Both the position numbers and the translations under genes were made by a program. A DNA stretch of 64,000 nucleotides from Rapana venosa. Lineage: Eukaryota; Mollusca; Gastropoda; Neogastropoda; Muricidae. Each line of letters begins with the position of its first letter. The first letter of the stretch is position 1. The stretch spans positions 29,271,335 to 29,335,334 of the forward strand of contig CM054165.1 of the NCBI GenBank assembly GCA_028751875.1, given 5' to 3'. Under the pieces are notes generated by a model. That model saw nothing but the letters and a program-made list of their open reading frames with translations, had not been told where the DNA came from and did no database searches. This document shows positions 4,158 through 63,832 of this stretch, one piece after another.

Positions 4158-4323
4158 ATTCCGCCGACGGAGGCGTGTGTGCGGGGCATGGTGAAGATGA
4201 CGCACTGCCCCAAGTGCCGCGGCCTGACACAGACCCAGCCCTGCAACAACTTCTGCCTCAACACCATGAAGGGCTGCCTGGCCCACCACGCCGAGCTGAA
4301 CGCTGACTGGAACCAGTACATTG
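4158..4323 (+). CDS. GPC6-like: Glypican (GPC4/6 type), internal exon 1 of 5 in window
   Basis: Glypicans are GPI-anchored heparan sulfate proteoglycans on the outer cell surface that tune Wnt, Hedgehog, BMP and FGF signalling. This exon encodes part of the cysteine-rich domain: HCPKCRGL, PCNNFCLN and [17 protein letters not shown], with the cysteine spacing and W/I positions of vertebrate GPC4/GPC6. It follows an acceptor (GCTGCTGCAG) and ends with one base of a split codon before donor G|GTCAGT; 166 bp gives 55 codons plus one base, which joins in phase to 7,559. The signal peptide and N-terminal exons are not in the window. The adjoining intron starts with about 40 tandem copies of this exon's last bases and its donor. 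The GPC4/6 assignment is firm; orthology within the group is inferred. Confidence 0.93.
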
Positions 4324-4418
4324 GTCAGTCAGTGTGTCAGTCAGTGTGTGTGTGTGTGTGTGTCAGTGTGTGTGACTGGAAAGAGTATACTGGTCAGTCA
4401 GTCAGTGTGTGTGTGTGT

Positions 4419-4456
<38 letters not shown>

Positions 4457-5596
4457 CTGGAACCAGTATATTGGTCAGTCAGTCATGTGTGTGTAGGTGT
4501 ATGGTGTGTGTGTGTGTGAGCTGAATGCCGACTGGAACCAGTATATTGGTCAGTCAGTCTGTCAGTCTGTGTGTGTGTGTCAGTGGTGTGTGACTGGAAC
4601 CAGTATATTGGTCAGTCGTCAGTGTGTCATGTGTGTGTGACTGGAACCAGTATATTGGTCAGTCAGTCAGTGTGTGTGTGGTGTGTGTGTGACTGGAACC
4701 AGTATATTGGTCAGTCAGTGTGTGTCAGTGTGTTGTCAGAGTGTGTGTGTGTGTGTGTGACTGGAACCAGTATATTGGTCAGTCAGTGTGTCAGTCAGTG
4801 TGTGTCAGAGTGTGTGTGTGTGTGTGTGACTGGAACCAGTATATTGGTCAGTCAGTGTGTCAGTCAGTGTGTGTCAGAGTGTGTGTGTGTGTGTGACTGG
4901 AACCAGTATATTGGTCAGTCAGTGTGTCAGTGTGTGTGGGTGTGTGTTGTGACTGGAACCAGTATATTGGTCAGTCAGTGTGTGTGTCAGTGTGTTGTGA
5001 CTGGAACCAGTATATTGGTCAGTCAGTGGTGTGTGTCAGTGTGTGTGTGACTGGAACCAGTATATTGGTCAGTCAGTCAGTGTGTGTGTGTGTGACTGGA
5101 ACCAGTATATTGGTCAGTCAGTGTGTGTGTCAGTGTGTGTGACTGGAACCAGTATATTGGTCAGTCAGTGTGTGTGTCAGTGTGTGTGACTGGAACCAGT
5201 ATATTGGTCAGTCAGTGTGTGTGACTGGAACCAGTATATTGGTCAGTCAGTCAGTGTGTCAGTGTGTGTGTGTGTGACTGGAACCAGTATATTGGTCAGT
5301 CAGTCAGTGTGTGTGTGTGTGTGACTGGAACCAGTATATTGGTCAGTCAGTGTGTGTGACTGGAACCAGTATATTGGTCAGTCAGTGTGTCAGTGTGTGT
5401 GTGTGACTGGAACCAGTATATTGGTCAGTCAGTCAGTGTGTTGTCAGTGGGTGTGTGTGACTGGAACCAGTATATTGGTCAGTCAGTCAGTCAGTGTTGT
5501 CAGTGTGGTGTGTGTGTGGTGTGTGTGGTGTGTGTGTGTGTGTGTGTGTGTGTGACTGGAACCAGTATATTGGTCAGTCAGTTGTGTCATGTGTGT

Positions 5597-5639
<43 letters not shown>

Positions 5640-6904
5640 GTGTGTGACTGGAACCAGTATATTGGTCAGTCAGTGTGTCAGTGTGGTGTGTGTGACTGGA
5701 ACCAGTATATTGGTCAGTCAGTCAGTCAGTGTGTGTGTGTGTGTGACTGGAACCAGTATATTGGTCAGTCAGTGTGTGTGTGTGTGTGTGTGGGTCAGTG
5801 TGTGTGTTGTAAGAGCTGAATGCACTGGAACCAGTATATTGGGTCAGTCAGTCAGTGTGTCAGTGTGTGTGTGTGACTGGAACCAGTATATTGGTCAGTC
5901 AGTCAGTGTGTCAGTGTGTGTGTGTGTGACTGGAACCAGTATATTGGTCAGTCAGGTCGTGTGTGTGTGTGACTGGAACCAGTATATTGGTCAGTCAGTC
6001 GTGTGTCAGTGTGGGGTGTGACTGGAACCAGTATATTGGTCAGTCAGTCAGTCAGTGTGTGTGTGTGTGTGACTGGAACCAGTATATTGGTCAGTCAGTG
6101 TGTGTGTGTGTGTGTGTGGGTCAGTTGTGTGTGGTAAGAGCTGAATGCCAACTGGAACCAGTATATTGGTCAGTCAGTCAGTGTGTGTGTGGGTGTGTGT
6201 GTGACTGGAACCAGTATATTGGTCAGTCAGTCAGTGTGTCAGTGTGGGTGTGTGACTGGAACCAGTATATTGGTCAGTCAGTCAGTGTGTCAGTGTGTGT
6301 GTGTGATGGAACCAGTATATTGGTCAGGTCAGTCAGTGTGTCGGTGTGTGTGTGTGGTGTTGGGGGGGGGGGTGTGTCAGTGGGTGTGGGTGTGTGTGTG
6401 TGTGTGTGTGGGGTCAGTGTGTGTGTGTGAGTTTATTTATTCATTTATTTATTTGTGTGTGTGTAAATGTGTATGCCGACCATGCTGAGCTGAATGCCGA
6501 CTGGAACCAGTATATTGGTCAGTCAGTCGGTGTGTCAGTGTGGGTCATGTGTGAGTGGGTGTGGGTGTGTGTGTGTGTGTGTCAGTGTGTGTATGTGTCT
6601 GGTGTGTGTCAAGTCAAAGTCAAAGTCAAAGTCAAATGTGTTTGTGTGTGTGTGTGTGTGTGAGTATTCAAATTCAATTAACGTCTTTTCACAAGTTGTG
6701 ATATTGGACGGAAAGTGTGAGTATGTTGTGTGTGTGTGTGTGTGTGAATGTGTATTGTGTGAATGTGTGTTGATGTGTGTGTGTGTGTGTGTGAATGTGT
6801 GTTGAGTGTGTGTGAATGTGTGTTGAGTGTGTGTGTCAGTGTGTGTGTGTCAGTGTGTGTGTGTGTGTGTGAGCTAAATGCCGACTGGAACCAGTTATAT
6901 TGGT

Positions 6905-6937
<33 letters not shown>

Positions 6938-7044
6938 TGTGAGTGTGGTAGGTGTGTGTGTAGTATGTATAGTGTGTGAGTGTGTGTGTGTGTCAGTGTG
7001 TTTGTGCGAGCTGAATGCTGACTGGAACCAGTATATTGGTCAGT

Positions 7045-7078
<34 letters not shown>

Positions 7079-7234
7079 TGTGTGTGTGTGTGCTTGTGTT
7101 AGTGTGTGTGTGTGTGAGTGTGTGTGTGAATGTGAGTGTGTATGTGTGTGTGCACTTGTGTATGCCCACCATGCTGAGCTGAATGCCGACTGGAACCAGT
7201 ATATTGGTCAGTCAGTCAGTGTGTGTGTGTGTGT

Positions 7235-7273
<39 letters not shown>

Positions 7274-7305
7274 CACCAACTGGAATCAGTATGTCAGTCA
7301 GTCAG
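4324..7305 (+). repeat. Exon-end/splice-donor minisatellite with TG tracts, in glypican intron
   Basis: About 40 imperfect copies of GACTGGAACCAGTATATTGG followed by TCAGTCAG, separated by (TG)n spacers, with period mostly 45-60 bp. The unit is the last ~20 bp of the preceding exon (GACTGGAACCAGTACATTG) plus its 5' splice site GTCAGT. Copies near 4,520, 6,120, 6,480, 7,010 and 7,170 keep more exon sequence (GAGCTGAATGCCGACTGG). Nearly every unit keeps the GGTCAGT donor. Frames through it repeatedly spell DWNQYIGQS because they are exon copies. Confidence 0.95.
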
Positions 7306-7321
7306 TCAGTATAAATACCCC

Positions 7322-7558: not shown

Positions 7559-7689
7559 ATGCCCTGAAGAACCTGGCCAAGCGTCTGGAAGGCCCGTTCA
7601 ACATCGAGTCTGTGGTGGACCCCATCGACGTGAAGATCAGCGGGGCCATCATGAACATGCAGGAGAACAGCGCCCAGGTCTCCTCCAAG
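7559..7689 (+). CDS. GPC6-like: Glypican, exon 2 of 5 in window
   Basis: The exon lies between acceptor TGTGTTGTGCAG and donor AAG|GTGAGC. The split codon (G+AT) gives Asp, so the join reads [19 protein letters not shown], followed by [20 protein letters not shown], which is nearly identical to vertebrate GPC4/6 and is the hallmark of the family core. It ends in phase 0 after SSK. Length 131 bp is not a multiple of three, so skipping would shift the frame. Confidence 0.95.
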
Positions 7690-13239: not shown

Positions 13240-13420
13240 TCAACTGTGTGTGTGTGTGTGCACGTGCGTGTGCGCGGCGTGCGTGCGTGCGTGTGTGTTT
13301 TATTTATCTATTTATTCTTTTATAACGAGGATAATGGAATAAGCACTCATGTGCTTTTTTACATCCAGTCCCCGTGTAGTATGCGGTTTTGTAAATTCTG
13401 TCATCTGTGTGTGTGTGTGT
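13240..13420 (-). mobile_element. TG tracts flanking a SINE-3 fragment beside a splice acceptor
   Basis: (TG)n lies at 13,243-13,298. SINE-3 tail sequence in reverse occupies about 13,300-13,405 (AATAAGCACTCATGTGCTTT, AGTCCCCGTGTAGTATGCGG). A second (TG)8 tract at 13,405-13,420 runs into GGCCAG, the acceptor of the next glypican exon. Confidence 0.75.
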
Positions 13421-13426
13421 GGCCAG

Positions 13427-13602
13427 GTACGTCCCTGCAGTGCAGAAGGACGGGGTGATCAACCAGATCAACAACCCTGAGGTGGAGGTGGACGTGTCCA
13501 AGGCCAACACGCTCTTCACGAGGCAGATGATCCAGCTGCGCCTCATCACCAGCCGCCTCAACTCCGCCTACAACGGGGAAGACGTCGACTGGATCGACAC
13601 GG
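13427..13602 (+). CDS. GPC6-like: Glypican, exon 4 of 5 in window
   Basis: Acceptor GTGTGTGGCCAG; the split Arg codon AG+G joins in phase. It encodes YVPAVQKDGVINQINNPEVE, VDVSKANTLFTRQMIQLRLI and SAYNGEDVDWID, matching the GPC4/6 region with NNPEV and YNG.DVD. The donor is ACG G|GTAGGT. This exon closes the folded core before the serine-glycine stalk. The (TG)8 tract replaces a normal polypyrimidine tract, a context known to affect splicing. Length 176 bp is not a multiple of three. The intron that follows opens with an array of donor-like units. Confidence 0.95.
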
Positions 13603-14175
13603 GTAGGTCACGCAAAAAAATCGAGTAGGGGTCACGCCGGGTAGGTTATGCCGAAAAGTTTGGGTGGGTCACGCCAAAAGTCGGGTAGGTCACACCGGGT
13701 AGGTCATGCCAAAAGTCGGGTAGGGGTCACGCCAGGTAGGTCACACCGAAAAGTCGGGTAGGTAGGTCACGCCAAAAGTTTGGGTAGGTCACGCCAAAAG
13801 TCAGGTGGGTCACGCCGAAAAAAGTTTGGGTAGGTCACAGCAAAAGTCGGGTAGGTCACACCGAAAGTTTGGGTAGGTCACATCAAAAGTCGGGTAGGTA
13901 GGTCACGCCGAAAAGTCGGGTAGGTCATGCCAAAAGTCAGGTAGGTCATGCCAAAAGTCGGGTAGGTCATGCAAAAAGTCGGGTAGGTCACGCCGAAAAG
14001 TCGGGTCGGGTAGATCACGCCAAAAGTTTGGGTAGGTCATGCCGAAAGTAGGTCATGCCGAAAGTAGGTCACACCGAAAGTAGGTCACACCGAAAAGTCG
14101 GGTAGGTCACGCCCAAAAGTCGGGTAGGTCACGCCCAAAAGTCGGGTAGGTCACGCCGAAAGTCGGTAAAGTAAT
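13603..14175 (+). repeat. Splice-donor-derived minisatellite in glypican intron
   Basis: About two dozen imperfect copies of a ~22-bp unit (GGGTAGGTCACGCC plus GAAAAGTC). The first unit is the real exon/intron junction: exon end ACGG followed by GTAGGTCACGC. Most units keep a G|GTAGGT donor-like sequence. Some units are shortened to GAAAGTAGGTCA. Confidence 0.93.
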
Positions 14176-35453: not shown

Positions 35454-36922
35454 TCACTCCAGTTCCCGCAGTTCCTGCATTCCGGGGAAGTACCAGCAAG
35501 CGCTGCGGACATTGCGAGAGAGGCAGAAGACGTTCTGACTGGCGCTGTTTAGCTTGGCGCTGCCACAGGCAGAGTTGACCAGCCTGTCCAGCAGGAGCTC
35601 GTTGTATCGGGGACTGCTGGCGTAGCTGATGAAGAACAGCCCCGCCTCCCCTCCTTTGTTCTTGTAGGGCAACGACTGGCGCAGGATGCGGAACGGTTTC
35701 TTGGGCGTGGCTGTCCCTGGAGTGCACTGGATCTGCCTCTCGGGATGGTTCTTCTGCATCTCCAGGCATTCCGTGTAGGCTTCCTTGATCCAGTGCTCCA
35801 TGGAGATGTCTGCCAGCTCTGCTTTGAGCATGGAGGGGGATCTGAACTTCTTCTCCCCAGGGGGTCCAGCACACTGCTCCCAGGCCCGGTCCACCCACTG
35901 GTTCATGATGAAGTCCCCGTTGGAGTTGAGCAGGTGGTCGTCGTGCACCCATCGCTGCGTCATGACGTAGCTGCCGCCTGTCCTGCTGTCCATGGCCGTC
36001 TCCTCCCGCTTGAACTCCGTGTCCTGGCTGCCCGTGTCGCTGACAAACAGCAGCCAGGGTTTGTCTTCAGGCACAGGGTGTTTCGGGGGGAACAGCTCCA
36101 TGTCTCCTTGGGTGTACTGGAAGTTCAAGATGCTGGGCTGGTTGGCGCCTGCCTCTGTCGTGGACAGCACCTCGGGGTAGCGGGTTTTGGCGTAGGTCTC
36201 CTCGGTGCAGAGGATGCTGTTCTTGGGCAGGTTCTGCAGCACCACCTTGCTGAGTTGCTTCAGCAGGTTCTCGTCGTTGGACTTGGCGTGGACGAGGATG
36301 TCACCGCCTACCGAGCTGCTGCTGATCAGACTGTGCTTAGCGTTGGAGAGGCCTTGGGGAGTCTTCCCTTTGACCTGTTTGTAGAACTCGGGCCCGAAGC
36401 CCACCCTGCCAGGATCCGGAAGTCTCCGCAGGCGTTCTCGGTGGGGGTTTCCACCTCCCCCACGTACTGCTGTATCCTGGCCACGCTGCAGGCCACATCC
36501 TGGGGGTCAGCCTCTTTCTTCACCTGGATCCACAGGAACAGCGCGTGCGCCCTGTCGTGGGAGCTGACGGAGGGCTGGCATCGGGCGGAGGCCGCCAGGT
36601 CCAGGTACACGGCGTCTTCAGGGCGAGGCAGCAGCCCATGCCGGGGCGGCTGCTCCTCCTCCGCCGCCACCACGGCCTTCCTCCGCGCGCGCCCCCTCTT
36701 GCCCTTTTTCCGTCTGCATTCCGCCTTTTTCAGCAAGGAGTCCCCTTGCGCTAGGGACCTGTAGGCGGTGTAGGTGAGGGCCACCCCCGTGGCTGTTCCC
36801 ATCACCACCTGCATTCTGCCCAGCATCAGGCAGCTCTGCGTGACCAGTTTCTGCAGGAAGGCCATCATCAGTCTGGCGGTGATAGAGGAGGAAGTCAGAA
36901 AGTAGGGCACTGGGTTGGCCAT
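35454..36922 (-). pseudogene. DyP-type peroxidase-like gene, frameshifted near 36,405
   Basis: Two overlapping - strand frames form one protein of about 500 residues. The N-terminal frame (ATG at 36,922; the exon may begin at 36,944) has a hydrophobic stretch (MQVVMGTATGVALTYTAY), a basic Lys/Arg/Glu stretch, and HALFLWIQVKKEADPQD and GDFRILAG. The second frame continues VGFGPEFYKQV, VGGDILVHAKSNDENLLKQL, GGSYVMTQRWVHDD and RILRQSLPY, then EAGLFFISYASSPRYNELLL to the stop at 35,454. The order GFGP, GGDIL, GGSY, ILR..PY, GLFF.SY is that of dye-decolorizing (DyP) heme peroxidases. A single missing base in the G-rich stretch at 36,400-36,409 would account for the break, so it may be an assembly error and not a dead gene. 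The usual GxxDG heme-pocket motif is not visible, so peroxidase activity is doubtful. Typed pseudogene only because of the frameshift. Confidence 0.7.
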
Positions 36923-48496: not shown

Positions 48497-51400
48497 CTAA
48501 TCCACATCTAACTGAGATTGAGTCTCTAGCCATTCCAGAAGCTTAGCTTCATTCCTTTGTCTTCTCTTTTCAGCCAGAGTGTTTAAGGTATACATGAACG
48601 GATTTATACCCGAGTTTAAAGGCAAGACAAAAATGGCCAGGATCACACTGATCTCCCCAGGGATACGTATACCAGCCAATGCCAGTAGTCCACACAGCCC
48701 AATGGGAAACCAGCACATGAAATCAGTAACTGCAATGGTGATCAAACGTCGAGCTATGGTCATATCCTGTGACACTTTGGTAGAATCGCCTTTTATAGCA
48801 TTTTGCTGAATTGTCCAGTAGATGAGAGCTTGGCCTGAAGAGACAAATAAAAAGATGATGAAATTGAAAACAATCAAAACACTGAAAGAATACACCCAAC
48901 CTTTAAAGTCTTGTCTTGTGACTGGCAGTGGGACACAGATACCAGTCTGTCCATAGAACTCCCAGTGTGATGTCGCTGGAAGCAATGGCAACATTGCTAC
49001 AAACAAGCCAGTTAACCAGGTCAGCAGACAGGCCACTGACGCTGATGTTCTGCCAAACCTCATGCTGCTGAAAGGAAAGTGAAGGACAATGAAACGATCC
49101 AGTGTGATAAACCAGATGATGAGAGCAGACACCTCACTGGACAGCAGAGACAGAAAACCAGCCACCTTACAGGTGATACTGTTTTTCCATATGTCGTCAT
49201 TATAAAAGTATTGTCCGCGGAACCATTCGTCTGCCACACCAATGATGGCAATGTAGACCCCCATCAGAAAGTCAGCCATGGAGAGGTTGGTGACGAACAC
49301 ACTGAAACCACTGGATGATGCCAGACGTTTATTAAACAAACGAGCACAAAAGCAGAAGACATTACCTGTCAGTGACAGACAGGTAATCAGCCACAGAAAT
49401 CCTCGGTATGTCCATGACTGCAGCAAATCTTCACAAGAAGAAAGTTCATCTCTTGGAGCAATGCATTCAGACATGTCAAAGTTATCGGGGAGTACATCAG
49501 AGCAGCAAAGTTTGTAGTTTTGTGTTGATATATAACGAAGACTAGAAAGAGATGTAAAAATGTCAGGTGGAAAAGTTTTCACAGGGCTGTTGTCCAGATG
49601 GAGTTCAGTTAACAGTGGTATGGACTTAAACCCAGCAGGGCTGATCGTGTGAATAGAGGCGGAGGTTAGGTTCAGTTTCTGCAGGTTAGGAAACAGTGAA
49701 AGCACTGTGGAATCAAACACTGTCAGTGTGGTGTGGGACAGATCTAGTGCTGTGAGTGAACTGTGCTGGCGAACAGATGAGGGACCAGTATTAAGAGATA
49801 TCAGAGGATTGTGAGACAGGGAGACTGTCTGTAAACTTTGTAAGCCAAGAAAAGATGTCATATTGATGTACTGCAGCATGTTACCACCGAGATCAAGGAT
49901 TTGTAAATTGAGCAGGGGTGTTTTTGGTATGAGCTTTATAGAGCAGTGTGCAAAGACCACATCAACTAGCAGAGCATTATTACTCACATCAGACAGTGTC
50001 ATGCCAGAGCCTGTAGCATCCAAGTAGCGAAGCTGAGGGAAGTGAGCTGCAGAGAAAGGCTGGGGACACAGAAAGGTGTGACCCTGACAAAGGCAGTTTG
50101 TAGGACATGTTACATTACATACTAATTCATCATCACTCATCGGGCAATGAGACCAACCATCACAGATGTGTTCATTGTGTACACATATTTTGGAATTCCT
50201 ACATTGAAAGAATCCTGAACATGCTATTTCTTCACATCCCTCTTCATCCTGGTGGCCAATACAGTCATGCATTGAATTACACCGTGTGTAGATAGGCAGG
50301 CAGTCATTAAATTCACCAGGACAACGATAGTGAGTGTCTGGACACAGCTCACTGGAATCCATTGGGAAAGGAAAAAAGCGTCTAAAGCCGTCAAACTGAA
50401 CAAGAACAGGAGATGGGTATGGTATAAAAAACAAGTAAAAGTCCCAGGTACAAATTTCGTCTTCCTTGTTTGCGCAGTGGTACACTTTATCACACACTTT
50501 GTCAAAGGGCAGGCAATAACCGTTAGCACACCTAAACTGCCTGACACAGGGAGGATGTTGGCAGAAAGATTCATCACTCTCATCCAGACAGTCGGTGACA
50601 AAGTTGCACACCAAAGTAAATGACAGTTTTGACACACCATCATTGCATGTAAATGTTGGAACTACAGAGCTGTGGTGGTCTGATAAATCAGATTCATGGC
50701 TGCCTGACAACTGATCAGAAAAAACACACGGGGACATGGGCTGCTGACCACATATCTGATTCTGGTTGGAGCCACACAGAAGAAACGTGTGTGTTACATG
50801 ACCACCAGGGCACTGTGTCATAGACTGCCGACCTGTGGACAGTGGAAATCCTGTGCTGTTTACTGAAACAGCCAGCGATCTCTGACCGTGTTTCCCTGTG
50901 TTGTTTTTCTGGAATTCACAAAACGCTCCTGTTTCAGTATCTTTGAATGTTGTGCATGACTGAAAGGATAAAGAGTGTGGAATGGATTTCAATTTAAAAC
51001 AAAGTTTTTCTTTGTTGGTCAGTTGCAATATAGTGAAAAAAGCATGATGGACAGCCTTTCTCGTTTTCTGAATAAGACTCTGTTCATACATAGTAGGAAG
51101 CAAAGAGTCAAGAGTGTACAAACCTGTCAAATGACCCTTAAGTCTTTTTGGATGTATTCCTGTTTTGGTTCGAATTGTAGTGAACAAATCATAAATACAG
51201 GTTGGCAAGCTCAGCTGTCCCCCATTGGAATGACAATATTCCTTGGCCCTTTCAATGATGTCAGTGTTATAGCTAACAAACCCACGCAGACTGTCAACAA
51301 TGGTGTAGCAATGGTCACAGAGATCTATCATTCCAGGACACTGGGGACTGCTGTAGGGACAGTCTCCTGTTTCATCCCGTCCATCTTCACACTCTGTCTT

Positions 51401-51888
51401 CAGATTACAGGCCAGGTGGTGATGAAAGCTGGTGTAATGCTCTACAGAACAGTTCCACAGATCATTGGCTAACTTCACAGGCTGTTTATTCTTAGAGAAG
51501 AATGAGAAAAATAGTTTGAAACACGCTGTATGTTCACAGTCTTGGCTGTCAACAATTAGGCTGAAATGTGTGGTGTGACAGAGATGGGCAAAATCTGACT
51601 CAAGGTCTGTTTTTCTTTTCCACACGACATACTTTGGCCCATCATCAGATTGTGATGTTTGGCAGGTTGAGTGATAAAGGCGTACATCAGGTACATGCTC
51701 TACTGCTTCTTTGTAGCTGATGATGACTACATGTGAGGCTGGCACAGACAGAGTTGTACACACTGTTGCAGTACCAGTCAGATCACTGAAGTTTGTCATC
51801 ATGCTGACGTAACCAGAGTCTTGTGACGTCATCACGAGATTAAAGTAGTTTGTAAAGTCTTTCGGTGATCTTTGATCTTCAGCCCTAT
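48497..51888 (-). CDS. GRL101/relaxin-receptor-like GPCR with LDLa and LRR ectodomain (3' exon)
   Basis: One uninterrupted - strand frame of about 1,130 residues. It follows a strong acceptor (CCCTGTGTTTTTTTTTAG at about 51,889-51,906), so the signal-peptide exon lies upstream and was not found. An LDL receptor class A-like module is near residues 150-185 (numbered from 51,925). A cysteine-containing spacer follows, then four LDLa modules at about 430-605 (CLDESDESFC, CANKEDEIC, CIGHQDEEGC, CPMSDDELVC), a short LRR cap (CPTNCLCQGHTFLC), and about six leucine-rich repeats to ~800 (NLQILDLGGNMLQYI, SLTALDLSHTTL). The seven-helix domain spans ~840-1,110: NLSMADFLMGVYI (TM2), ITLDRFIVLHFPF (a DRY-type position reading DRF), CWFPIGLCG (TM6) and NSGINPFMYTL (TM7). 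This matches Lymnaea GRL101 and the relaxin receptors RXFP1/2. A plasma-membrane receptor coupling to G proteins is expected; the ligand is unknown. Confidence 0.9.
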
Positions 51889-52230
51889 CTAAAAAAAAAC
51901 ACAGGGAAAGAGCGCTGCATGTCAATGCATGGAACGTTCAACACCAGGACTTAAACCAAGAAAGAATAATAAAAACCGGATCATTGAAAGATACTATTTG
52001 TGATGCTCCACCAGTCTTACTGCACTATGGGTCCATTGTTAGTCACTGACATATTATTATTATTTTGCAATAGAAGGACTATTAAATACAGAACAGATTA
52101 AAATCGGACAATACTGTGAATAGTTATTACAAATTAAAATGATAGACTGCCGGAAGTGACACATTAAGAAATGGACTAGTTTAGCAATGTAAGTAGATTG
52201 TCAGAACGAGAGCTTGAGCAACAGTTCACT
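51889..52230. other. GPCR intron, no gene seen
   Basis: Begins, in - sense, at the GPCR acceptor. AT-rich; no exon recognised. Confidence 0.5.
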
Positions 52231-60393: not shown

Positions 60394-61262
60394 ATGCCTG
60401 TCTCTCCGTTACTTTTCAGAAGTGTGTGTGGAGGATTTCTGCCAGTATTTTTGAAGTTCATGTACGACAGAGCAAAATTCAAAGCAGCCATGTATCAGCC
60501 AGTGTTGACATTAGGAAGCAAAACAGACGGTGTCATGGCAGGTTTGCTCCTCTTCCTCCTGTACATGGGCAATTTGATTCATCAATGTGGGGACATGGAA
60601 TTGAACCCGGGACCAAAACAGGACACTTCCAGACCAACACGGATGATGAATGGCGGACAGAGACGACCCAACACTGGCCAAGCAGCAGGTGAGAAGTGTG
60701 AGGACGAGCTGACTCTGAAAGAGGTGGCGTTGATCACCTTCAGAGATGACATGAAAAAAGACATGGCAGATTTAAAGCAATCTCATGCGGACTTGACTCA
60801 AAATGTTCACCACTTGATGACTTCTGTTGACAGTTTAAGAAGAGAGAATGAACTTTTAAAGGAAGAAAACTGTGCTTTAAAAAGCAAAGTGGACAGTTTA
60901 GAAAAAAGACAGATGAGTTGGAAGGAAGGTCAAAAAGAAACAACTTGATTATCCATAGGATACAGAGAAATGAGAGTGAAACTTGGCAAGACTGTGTGGA
61001 GCTGGTGGGTGAAATGATAGTGGATAAACTGGAATTGTCAAACACATTTCAATTTGATAGGGTGCACCGACTGAACAGTAAGCCAAACTCGCCCATAGTT
61101 GTACTTTTTTCAAGGACAAAGAAAGAATCCCGAAGGAACGAAGCAAACTGAAAGGCAGCGGAATTTTCATCAACGAGGACTTTTCCGCAAAAGTGAGGGA
61201 AGTCAGAAGAAAGCTGGCTCCACGCCTCAAGGCCGCCAGGGACCAAGGAAAGAAAGCCACCA
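60394..61262 (+). mobile_element. CR1-like LINE ORF1 with 2A-like ribosome-skipping motif
   Basis: From ATG 60,394 the frame has a hydrophobic segment (MAGLLLFLLYMGNLI) and then QCGDMELNPGPK. This fits the 2A/2A-like consensus D-x-E-x-N-P-G-P (NPG|P, codons 71-74, 60,604-60,615), where the ribosome skips one peptide bond. A long coiled coil follows (residues ~100-180, MTSVDSLRRENELLKEENCA). A frameshift in an A6 run near 60,902 leads to LEGRSKRNNLIIHRIQRNES, and a second in a T6 run near 61,108 leads to KGSGIFINEDFSAKVREVRR and RLKAARDQGKKATMIHDHLV, the usual ORF1 C-terminal block of CR1-type elements. ORF2 is not seen. Similar 2A motifs open ORF1 in other invertebrate LINEs. Confidence 0.8.
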
Positions 61263-63832
61263 TGATACATGATCACCTGGTGATAAAGGAGAGAAAGCCA
61301 CCATGATGCATGACCACCTGGTGATAGAGGAAAGAAAGCCACCATGATACATGATAACCTGGTGATAGAGGAAAGAAAGCCACCATGATACATGATCACC
61401 TGGTGATAGAGGAAAGAAAGCCACCATGATACATGATCACCTGGTGATAGAGGAAAGAAAGCCACCATGATACATGACCACCTGGTGATAGAGGAAAGAA
61501 AGCCACCATGATGCATGACCACCTGGTGATAGAGGAAAGAAAGCCACCATGATACATGATCACCTGGTGATAGAAGGAAAGAAATCCACCATGATACATG
61601 ATCACCTGGTGATAGAGGAAAGAAAGCCACCATGATCCATGATCACCTGGTGATAGACAGAAGAAAGCCACCATGATACATGATCACCTGGTGATAGACA
61701 GAAGAAAGCCACCATGATATATGATCACCTGGTGATAGAGGAAAGAAAGCCACCATGATACATGATCACCTGGTGATAGATGGAAGAAAGCCACCATGAT
61801 ACATGATCACCTGGTAATAGAGGAAAGAAGGGCACCATGATCCATGATCACCTGGTGATAAACGGAAAGAAAGCCACCAATATTTCATGATCACCTGGTG
61901 ATAGAGGAAAGAAAGCCACCATGATACATGATCACCTGGTGATAGAGAGAAGAAAGCCACCATGATACATGATCACCTGGTGATAGAGGAAAGAAATCCA
62001 CCATGATACATGATCACCTGGTGATAGATGGAAGAAAGCAACCATGATACATGATCACCTGGTAATAGAGGAAAGAAAGGCACCATGATCCATGATCACC
62101 TGGTGATAAATGGAAGAAAGCAACCATGATACATAATCACCTGGTGATAGAGGGAAGAAAGCCACCATGATCACCTGGTGATAAAGGAAATAAAGCCACC
62201 ATGATACATGATCACCTGGTGATAGAGGAAATAAAGCCACAATGATACATGATCACCTGGTGATAGAGGAAAGAAAGCCACCATGATACATGACCACCTG
62301 GTGATAGATGAATGAAAGCCACCATGATGCATGATCACCTGGTGATAGAGGAAAGAAAGCCACCATGATCCATGATCACCTGGTGATAGATGAATGAAAG
62401 CCACCATGATGCATGATCACCTGGTGATAGAGGAAAGAAAGCCACCATGATACATGATCACCTGGTGATAGAGGGAAAAAAGCCACCATGATACATGATC
62501 ACCTGGTGATAGATGGAAGAAAGCCACCATGATACATGATCACCTGGTAATAGAGGAAAGAAGGGCACCATGATCCATGATCACCTGGTGATAAACGGAA
62601 AGAAATCCACCAATATTTCATGATCACCTGGTGATAGAGGAAAGAAAGCCACCATGATACATGATCACCTGGTGATAGAGAGAAGAAAGCCACCATGATA
62701 CATGATCACCTGGTGATAGAGGAAAGAAATCCACCATGATACATGATCACCTGGTGATAAATGGAAGAAAGCAACCATGATACATAATCACCTGGTGATA
62801 GAGGGAAGAAAGCCACCATGATCCATGATCACCTGGTGATAAAGGAAATAAAGCCACCATGATACATGATCACCTGGTGATAGAGGAAATAAAGCCACAA
62901 TGATACATGATCATCTGGTGATGGAGGAAAGAAAGCCACCATGATACATGATCACCTGGTGATAGATGAATGAAAGCCACCATGATACATGATCACCTGG
63001 TGATAAAGGAAAGAAAGCCACCATGATACATGATCACCTGGTGATAGTTGGAAGAAAGCCACCATGACATATGATCACCTGGTGATAGAGGAAAGAAAGC
63101 CGCCATGATCCATGATCACCTGGTGATAAAGGAAAGAAAGCCACCATGATACATGATCACCTCGTGATAGAGGGAAGAAAGCCACCATGATACATGATCA
63201 CCTGGTGATAGACAGAAGAAAGCCACCATGATACATGATCACCTGGTGATAGACGGAAGAAAGCCACCATGATACATGATCACCTGGTGATAGAGGGAAA
63301 AAAGCCACCATGATACATGATCACCTGGTGATAAATGGAAGAAAGCAACCATGATACATAATCACCTGGTGATAGAGGAAAGAAAGCCACCATGATCACC
63401 TGGTGATAGATGAAAGAAAGCCACCATGATACACGATCACCTGGTGATAGAGGCAAGAAAGCCACCATGATATGTGATCACCTGGTGATAGTTGGAAGAA
63501 AGCCACCATGATACATGATCACCTGGTGATAGATGAAAGAAAGCCACCATGATCACCTGGTGATAGAGGAAAGAAAGGCACCATGATCCATGATCACCTG
63601 GTGATAAACGGAAAGAAATCCACCAATATTTCATGATCACCTGGTGATAGAGGAAAAAAAGCCACCATGATCCATGATCACCTGGTGATAAAGGAAATAA
63701 AGCCACCATGATACATGATCACCTGGTGATAGAGGAAAGAAAGCCACCATGATACATGATCACCTGGTGATAGATGAATGAAAGCCACCATGATACATGA
63801 TCACCTGGTGATAAACGGAAAGAAAGTTCTTT
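61250..63832 (+). repeat. 41-bp minisatellite seeded by LINE ORF1
   Basis: About 60 units of GAAAGAAAGCCACCATGATA, CATGATCACCTGGTGATAGA, G. The first unit is the ORF1 segment encoding GKKATMIHDHLVI, so the array grew from the element. ATCACC-T-GGTGAT in each unit is a near-palindrome. Variants (GGAAGAAAGCAACC, ATTTCATGATC, units of ~26 bp) recur in the same order in blocks near 61,770-62,160, 62,500-62,850 and 63,290-63,650, indicating higher-order duplication. There are no unique spacers, so this is not a CRISPR array. Confidence 0.95.

Follow-up and report, generated by a model that had tools for sequence, protein, structure and literature searches.

A tandem array of exon/intron junction copies in a glypican intron of the gastropod Rapana venosa

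How does an intron come to open with one donor site followed by dozens of near-identical ones, and which of these donors would be used? The question is raised by a glypican gene within a stretch of 64,000 nucleotides of the Rapana venosa genome (assembly GCA_028751875.1, contig CM054165.1, positions 29,271,335 to 29,335,334 of the forward strand; hereafter the window, from whose first nucleotide positions are counted), in which the end of an exon and its donor recur throughout the intron that follows. The array is a further case, and an extreme example, of a known kind of repeat, the mirage of amphioxus. The explanation favoured here, with a probability of roughly 0.8, is that a minisatellite arose by tandem duplication of the splice junction, that it is nearly neutral, and that the original donor is the one used. 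Arrays of the same type at several unrelated junctions of this genome, on donor and acceptor sides alike, are a more interesting outcome than the glypican case itself.

The array and its source exon

The source exon ends in ...GACTGGAACCAGTACATTG and its donor, GTCAGT, starts at 4324; the intron between this exon and the next (4158-4323 and 7559-7689; Table 1) is 3.2 kb long and consists of array for the most part. A protein search with the source exon alone returned one protein; among 120 of the 235 protein matches to the exons, the snail Batillaria is the single mollusc named, and vertebrates are named as well. Each unit of the array is composed of the core ACTGGAACCAGTATATTG, a GTCAGT donor (mostly in the form GTCAGTCAGT) and a TG/TCAG tract whose length varies. 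Counting degenerate units, the exon end with its donor is repeated 40 times in the intron, the copies starting at positions 4374 to 7278, so that the coordinates and the figure of about 40 copies in the initial annotation were accurate; the amplification of the junction inside the glypican intron is confirmed.

The 25-mer GACTGGAACCAGTA(C/T)ATTGGTCAGT has 35 exact matches on the plus strand (one in the exon, 34 in the intron) and none on the minus strand at up to four edits. In 100 sequences simulated for the region with a first-order Markov model it was absent at up to four substitutions. At up to two mismatches the whole 2.28-Gb genome contains at least 57 matches, 37 of them at the glypican locus (exon included); the others, at least 20, are scattered and all carry two mismatches, and one of them is a paralogous exon. 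The reversed pattern, as a control, gave at least 10 matches in the whole genome at the same threshold, and a scan of viral contigs with the pattern gave none.

The 18-bp core is exact in 36 of the 40 intron copies, all 36 of which read TAT in place of the exon's TAC; the interior of the array is thus homogenised, and its first and last units are degenerate. Units are 35-95 bp long in the crowded part, and spacers measure 71-366 bp in the sparse 3' part. The exon portion of a unit ranges from about 18 to 43 bp, plus the donor, and the observation that a few copies carry a longer piece of exon holds for seven units (near 4518, 5813, 6138, 6487, 6871, 7009 and 7174), of which the one near 7174 has the longest exon stretch of all, matching 43 bp with five differences. 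In short units the TG tract joins the exon at the exon's own TG (GCTGACTGG; TGACTGG), and two of the long units, those near 4518 and 6871, join the tract at TGAGCT.

That the copy number was inflated or reshuffled by assembly appears improbable. The TG tracts show many single-base irregularities, runs of N, either gaps or withheld sequence, adjoin simple repeats at loci L093 and L094, and one amphioxus mirage is reported, in the accessible part of its source, to have been aberrantly assembled in a draft genome. However, the spacers differ in both length and sequence, with just four spacer sequences found twice, the window contains no N, and similar arrays are present at other genes.

Table 1. 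Exons, splice sites and junction arrays of the glypican gene, and splice-site arrays at other genes. A slash marks the splice junction; positions are those of the window unless preceded by a contig label.
Feature	Location	Strand	Description
Glypican source exon	4158..4323	+	PF01153, E 2e-21; phase-1 end ...ADWNQYI-D
Authentic donor TTG/GTCAGT	4321..4329	+	Weak, C at +3; duplex with U1 5' end -5.0 kcal/mol
Crowded array part	4374..6322	+	35 of 40 intron copies; core + GTCAGT + TG/TCAG tract; 3 long units
First decoy donor CTG/GTCAGT	4390..4398	+	Exon end 4392, +69 nt, in frame, open
Second decoy donor TTG/GTCAGT	4471..4479	+	Exon end 4473, +150 nt, in frame, open
First in-frame stop (TAG) on read-through into array	4494..4496	+	
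Sparse 3' array part	6465..7320	+	5 of 40 copies: 4 long, and the degenerate last at 7278
Next glypican exon	7559..7689	+	Acceptor ...TTGTGCAG/ATGCC, donor AAG/GTGAGC; continues PF01153 profile, E 1.7e-11
Later exon, same glypican gene (L017)	13419..13602	+	Ends GACACGG/GTAGGTCACGC; PF01153 profile 420-480, E 7.7e-11
Second donor-side array, same glypican gene (L017)	13601..14168	+	Unit about 21 bp, CGG/GTAGGTCACGCCAAAAGT (CGG/GTAGGTCACGCC...)
CDK9-like acceptor array (L047 + L053)	C28:35004001-35010800	-	17 copies upstream of real exon
PLK-like donor array (L064)	C7:46444400-46446400	-	Exon end AGAGAGGAAGAT/GTGAGTGTGTG
NEK-like acceptor array (L069)	C9:19969900-19971900	+	7 copies including authentic, at most 6 edits; two kinds of unit
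MAP2K-like acceptor array (L083)	C1:10525900-10527900	-	48-bp unit; 7 copies including authentic, at most 3 edits

Descent from the exon and likeness to mirages

By sequence comparison the exon is judged to be older than the array, because a paralogous exon on C22 (locus L013; ...AACCAGTACATTG, donor GTGAGT) has the same end with no junction copies found next to it, and because the read-through open reading frames P0002-P0004 depart from the exon at that residue too. These observations also uphold the initial proposal that the exon/intron junction gave rise to the array and that the exon was the source. Between the exon and the unit near 7174 there are five differences, each a transition at a third codon position. 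The paralog has the exon's state at three of these sites (CAC, AAC, TAC) and the array's state at the other two (GCT, GCC), one paralog being a thin outgroup for polarity. The array is not uniform, since the copy near 7009 has two further states in common with the exon.

A coding constraint on the array, which five third-position differences out of five might indicate, was rejected, because four of the five are CpG/TpG pairs that here fall on third positions and because the arrays at L069 and L047 differ from their own exons at non-third positions. A match on C2 with the residues DWKEY was ruled out as a glypican, its frame being broken by stops.

The array may have been built in two steps. 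First, a segment comprising at least 43 bp of the exon, the donor and part of the TCAG/TG tract would have been duplicated; slippage or unequal exchange by way of the TG tract would then have truncated the copies and raised their number. A TG is visibly shared by tract and exon, and new 5' ends may arise where the two meet (TGACTGG, TGAGCT). Use of the outermost, original donor would leave the mRNA unchanged, all copies being on its intron side. An origin of this kind is supported by the polarity of the array, in which the short units are crowded and homogenised, the long ones with more exon are found mostly towards the 3' end, and the last unit is degenerate. The array is most probably nearly neutral, and a function is improbable.

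The initial annotation knew of no minisatellite class born from an exon/intron junction, but the mirages of amphioxus are such a class, and the donor minisatellite of human IFI6 is a precedent. In the accessible portions of the reports, to which all statements on amphioxus made here are limited, mirages are described as minisatellite-like tandem duplications of exon/intron boundaries, found in Adh3, troponin C, the globins BflGb6 (acceptor side) and BflGb9 (donor side), and PGBD5 (PMC3087553, PMC3902484). Their units measure 10-72 bp at Adh3 and 10-160 bp overall, the arrays vary in length, at Adh3 even somatically, Adh3 data and reverse-transcription PCR of the globins suggest that splicing is undisturbed, and mirages have been proposed as a route to new introns (PMC3087553, PMC3902484).

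The glypican array resembles the amphioxus mirages in being a tandem boundary duplication with splice signals in many units (here 36 TTG/GTCAGT), in its unit length, which is in the minisatellite range, and in a homogenised interior with edge units that are not; donor and acceptor boundaries are both known in amphioxus and were both found in this genome. Unlike the mirages, its units are tied to a TG/TCAG microsatellite and its host is a mollusc, and it has 40 copies as opposed to the 6 and 3 of BflGb6 in two haplotypes. Length variation and undisturbed splicing are reported in amphioxus, whereas the glypican array is known from the sequence of one assembly. Among the papers listed by a literature search, none was seen to report a mirage from a mollusc, which is weak evidence with most subscription papers outside the search, and the accessible text of papers on intronic repeats in earthworm metallothionein (minisatellites), a Conus intron and abalone TSSK does not mention splice-junction copies.

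Possible competition among donors

The authentic donor is weak, with a computed U1 duplex of -5.0 kcal/mol versus -9.6 for the donor of the next intron and -14.0 for the consensus, and the same 9-mer is found at 36 sites 3' of it. Donor-like sites that score at least as high as the authentic one number 73 in 3,233 nt of this intron (22.6 per kb). Three stretches elsewhere in the window have 2.8-6.3 such sites per kb, which makes these weak sites 4- to 8-fold enriched in the intron. The titration of U1 that the initial annotation had considered looks unlikely in view of the weakness of the donor and the occurrence of similar-scoring sites elsewhere. Its suggestion of alternative donors that add DWNQYIGQS repeats to the protein is unsupported, as this would be possible for at most two decoys (4392 and 4473), every GGTCAGT donor beyond 4473 being behind the TAG at 4494. 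Its third option, that the first donor wins and the array has no effect, appears the likeliest: the first donor is presumed to be used because, together with the upstream acceptor, it delimits an exon of normal size (166 nt), and because all but two of the decoys would add a premature stop.

A role of the array as a landing pad for U1, aiding recognition of the weak donor or blocking early intronic polyadenylation, could be argued from that weakness and from the 73 sites of equal or better score, but sites of such score exist outside this intron also, their binding is a prediction, and such copies are absent from the paralog; this role is considered very improbable.

The minisatellite of human IFI6, with a unit of 12 bp, was reportedly described as a donor minisatellite by Turri et al. 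in 1995, and a 2007 paper by Zhuo et al., to judge by its title, deals with alternatively spliced human introns that originate from tandem arrays. As far as the accessible text of the IFI6 papers goes, this minisatellite (gene also named G1P3 or 6-16) supplies multiple donors (PMC4526556, PMC3618361), two downstream repeat units serving as such (PMC4526556). Were the glypican decoys truly used in the same manner, 4392 and 4473 would yield 23 or 50 extra residues, and later decoys would yield stop-containing mRNAs and less glypican. The two decoys that permit such use are open and in frame, the second being the authentic 9-mer and the first scoring slightly better; the downstream copies of IFI6 are used, whereas these two are candidate donors predicted from sequence. 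Their use is nevertheless unlikely, since the inserts would be Val/Cys/Ser/Gly-rich TG-tract sequence within a conserved domain, and amphioxus mirages are reported without disturbance of splicing. In form, the IFI6 minisatellite is nearer to the second array of the glypican gene (13601-14168) than to the first.

Several points weigh against a near-neutral mirage with the original donor in use. A weak authentic donor with its own 9-mer in 36 of 40 decoys makes competition plausible, the first two decoys are both open and in frame, and human IFI6, in the accessible part of the report, does use downstream repeat units as donors (PMC4526556). The 36 identical 18-bp cores fit recent expansion or constraint alike, and the minimum of array coverage per base just past donor-side edges in the survey below may reflect exon bases beyond the profile match or selection against decoys. 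Forty near-identical donors in cis, of which the first alone has an intact frame and two more are tolerable, amount to an extreme in vivo counterpart of an experiment with competing splice sites; should the outermost one win in every case, the choice would be made by position and exon definition and not by site strength.

Splice-site arrays elsewhere in the genome

Exon edges were surveyed in 80 exon matches from the same genome, 11 of them glypican (seven apparently from this gene, target included) and 69 kinase (30 extracted automatically, the other 39 selected by hand from the remaining 109 rows; kinase names are a reading of translated motifs). Edges were those of hidden Markov model (HMM) matches, for example at 13419 in L017, splice sites were judged by eye, matches with internal stops were kept, and low-complexity 20-mers were excluded from the counts. 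A non-simple 20-mer present at least three times was found in 13 of 160 edge windows, versus 16, 19 and 17 of 160 windows displaced by 350, 500 and 650 bp, the inclusion of some exon in edge windows slightly lowering their count. The idea that junctions attract arrays was rejected, because displaced windows hold arrays at least as often as edges do. Past donor-side edges, array coverage per base was 0.9% in the first 75-bp bin and 1.4% in the second, versus 1.8-4.2% deeper; just before acceptor-side edges it was 2.8-3.0%, versus 1.8-5.1% further out. Mild avoidance of arrays at donors is possible, on small numbers.

Judged by eye, splice-site arrays that include exon bases are present at six of the 80 exons (three donor, three acceptor); for kinases alone the figures are 4 of 69 exons and 4 of 138 edges. 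The second glypican array has 22 copies of a 14-bp core (at most two mismatches) and 17 GG/GTAGGT sites, the authentic one counted in both, and contains three exon bases only. The CDK9-like array has, besides the authentic junction, 12 copies in L047 and 5 further upstream in L053, most of them with about 40 bp of exon, and the PLK-like array has 24 copies including the authentic one (at most three edits), with a period of mostly 25-27 bp. Left out of the six were the donor side of L073 (which may be a C-terminus), L059 (donor-like repeats of unclear origin), L052 and L019 (arrays that abut acceptors without clear exon bases), and the acceptor sides of L064 and L073 together with L080 (junction outside the array as far as examined). 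Three further myosin exons (of 72 rows) had no arrays, and their very long open frames are explained by runs of N.

In a genome this rich in minisatellites, the splice-site arrays look like arrays that happen to fall on a boundary, and mirages may be common in it. That mirages are pervasive here, and no peculiarity of amphioxus, is an evenly balanced judgement; such arrays lie at 4 of 138 kinase edges, or about 3%, on donor and acceptor sides, near the share of intron in arrays. If mirages are pervasive, decoy splice sites that are identical and number in the dozens would hardly be purged by selection, and the spliceosome would reliably pick the outermost among many identical sites, a natural experiment in exon definition. 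The arrays at several unrelated genes suggest that boundary duplications commonly supply raw material in a second animal lineage, one distant from amphioxus.

Other repeats were noted near surveyed exons. At L052 (C7:3930197-3930652 with 1500 bp on each side, minus strand), units of 40-46 bp reach the acceptor and the last intron bases are unit-like; no exon bases were found in this repeat. Glypican introns at L013, L019, L020 and from 7690 onward in the window open with long low-complexity sequence that is GT/GGGT-rich or CA-rich.

Elsewhere in the window, an open reading frame on the minus strand (35457-36506) encodes a Dyp-type peroxidase C-terminal domain (PF20628, E 2.8e-8), which is unexpected for an animal genome, and an open frame of 1145 residues, also on the minus strand (48503-51937), contains LDLa, leucine-rich repeat and rhodopsin-type seven-transmembrane (7TM) domains. 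An open reading frame with an RNase H domain (PF00075; 52702-53901) is probably a retroelement remnant, and a 41-bp minisatellite of 63 copies (61246-63826) lies close to the window end.
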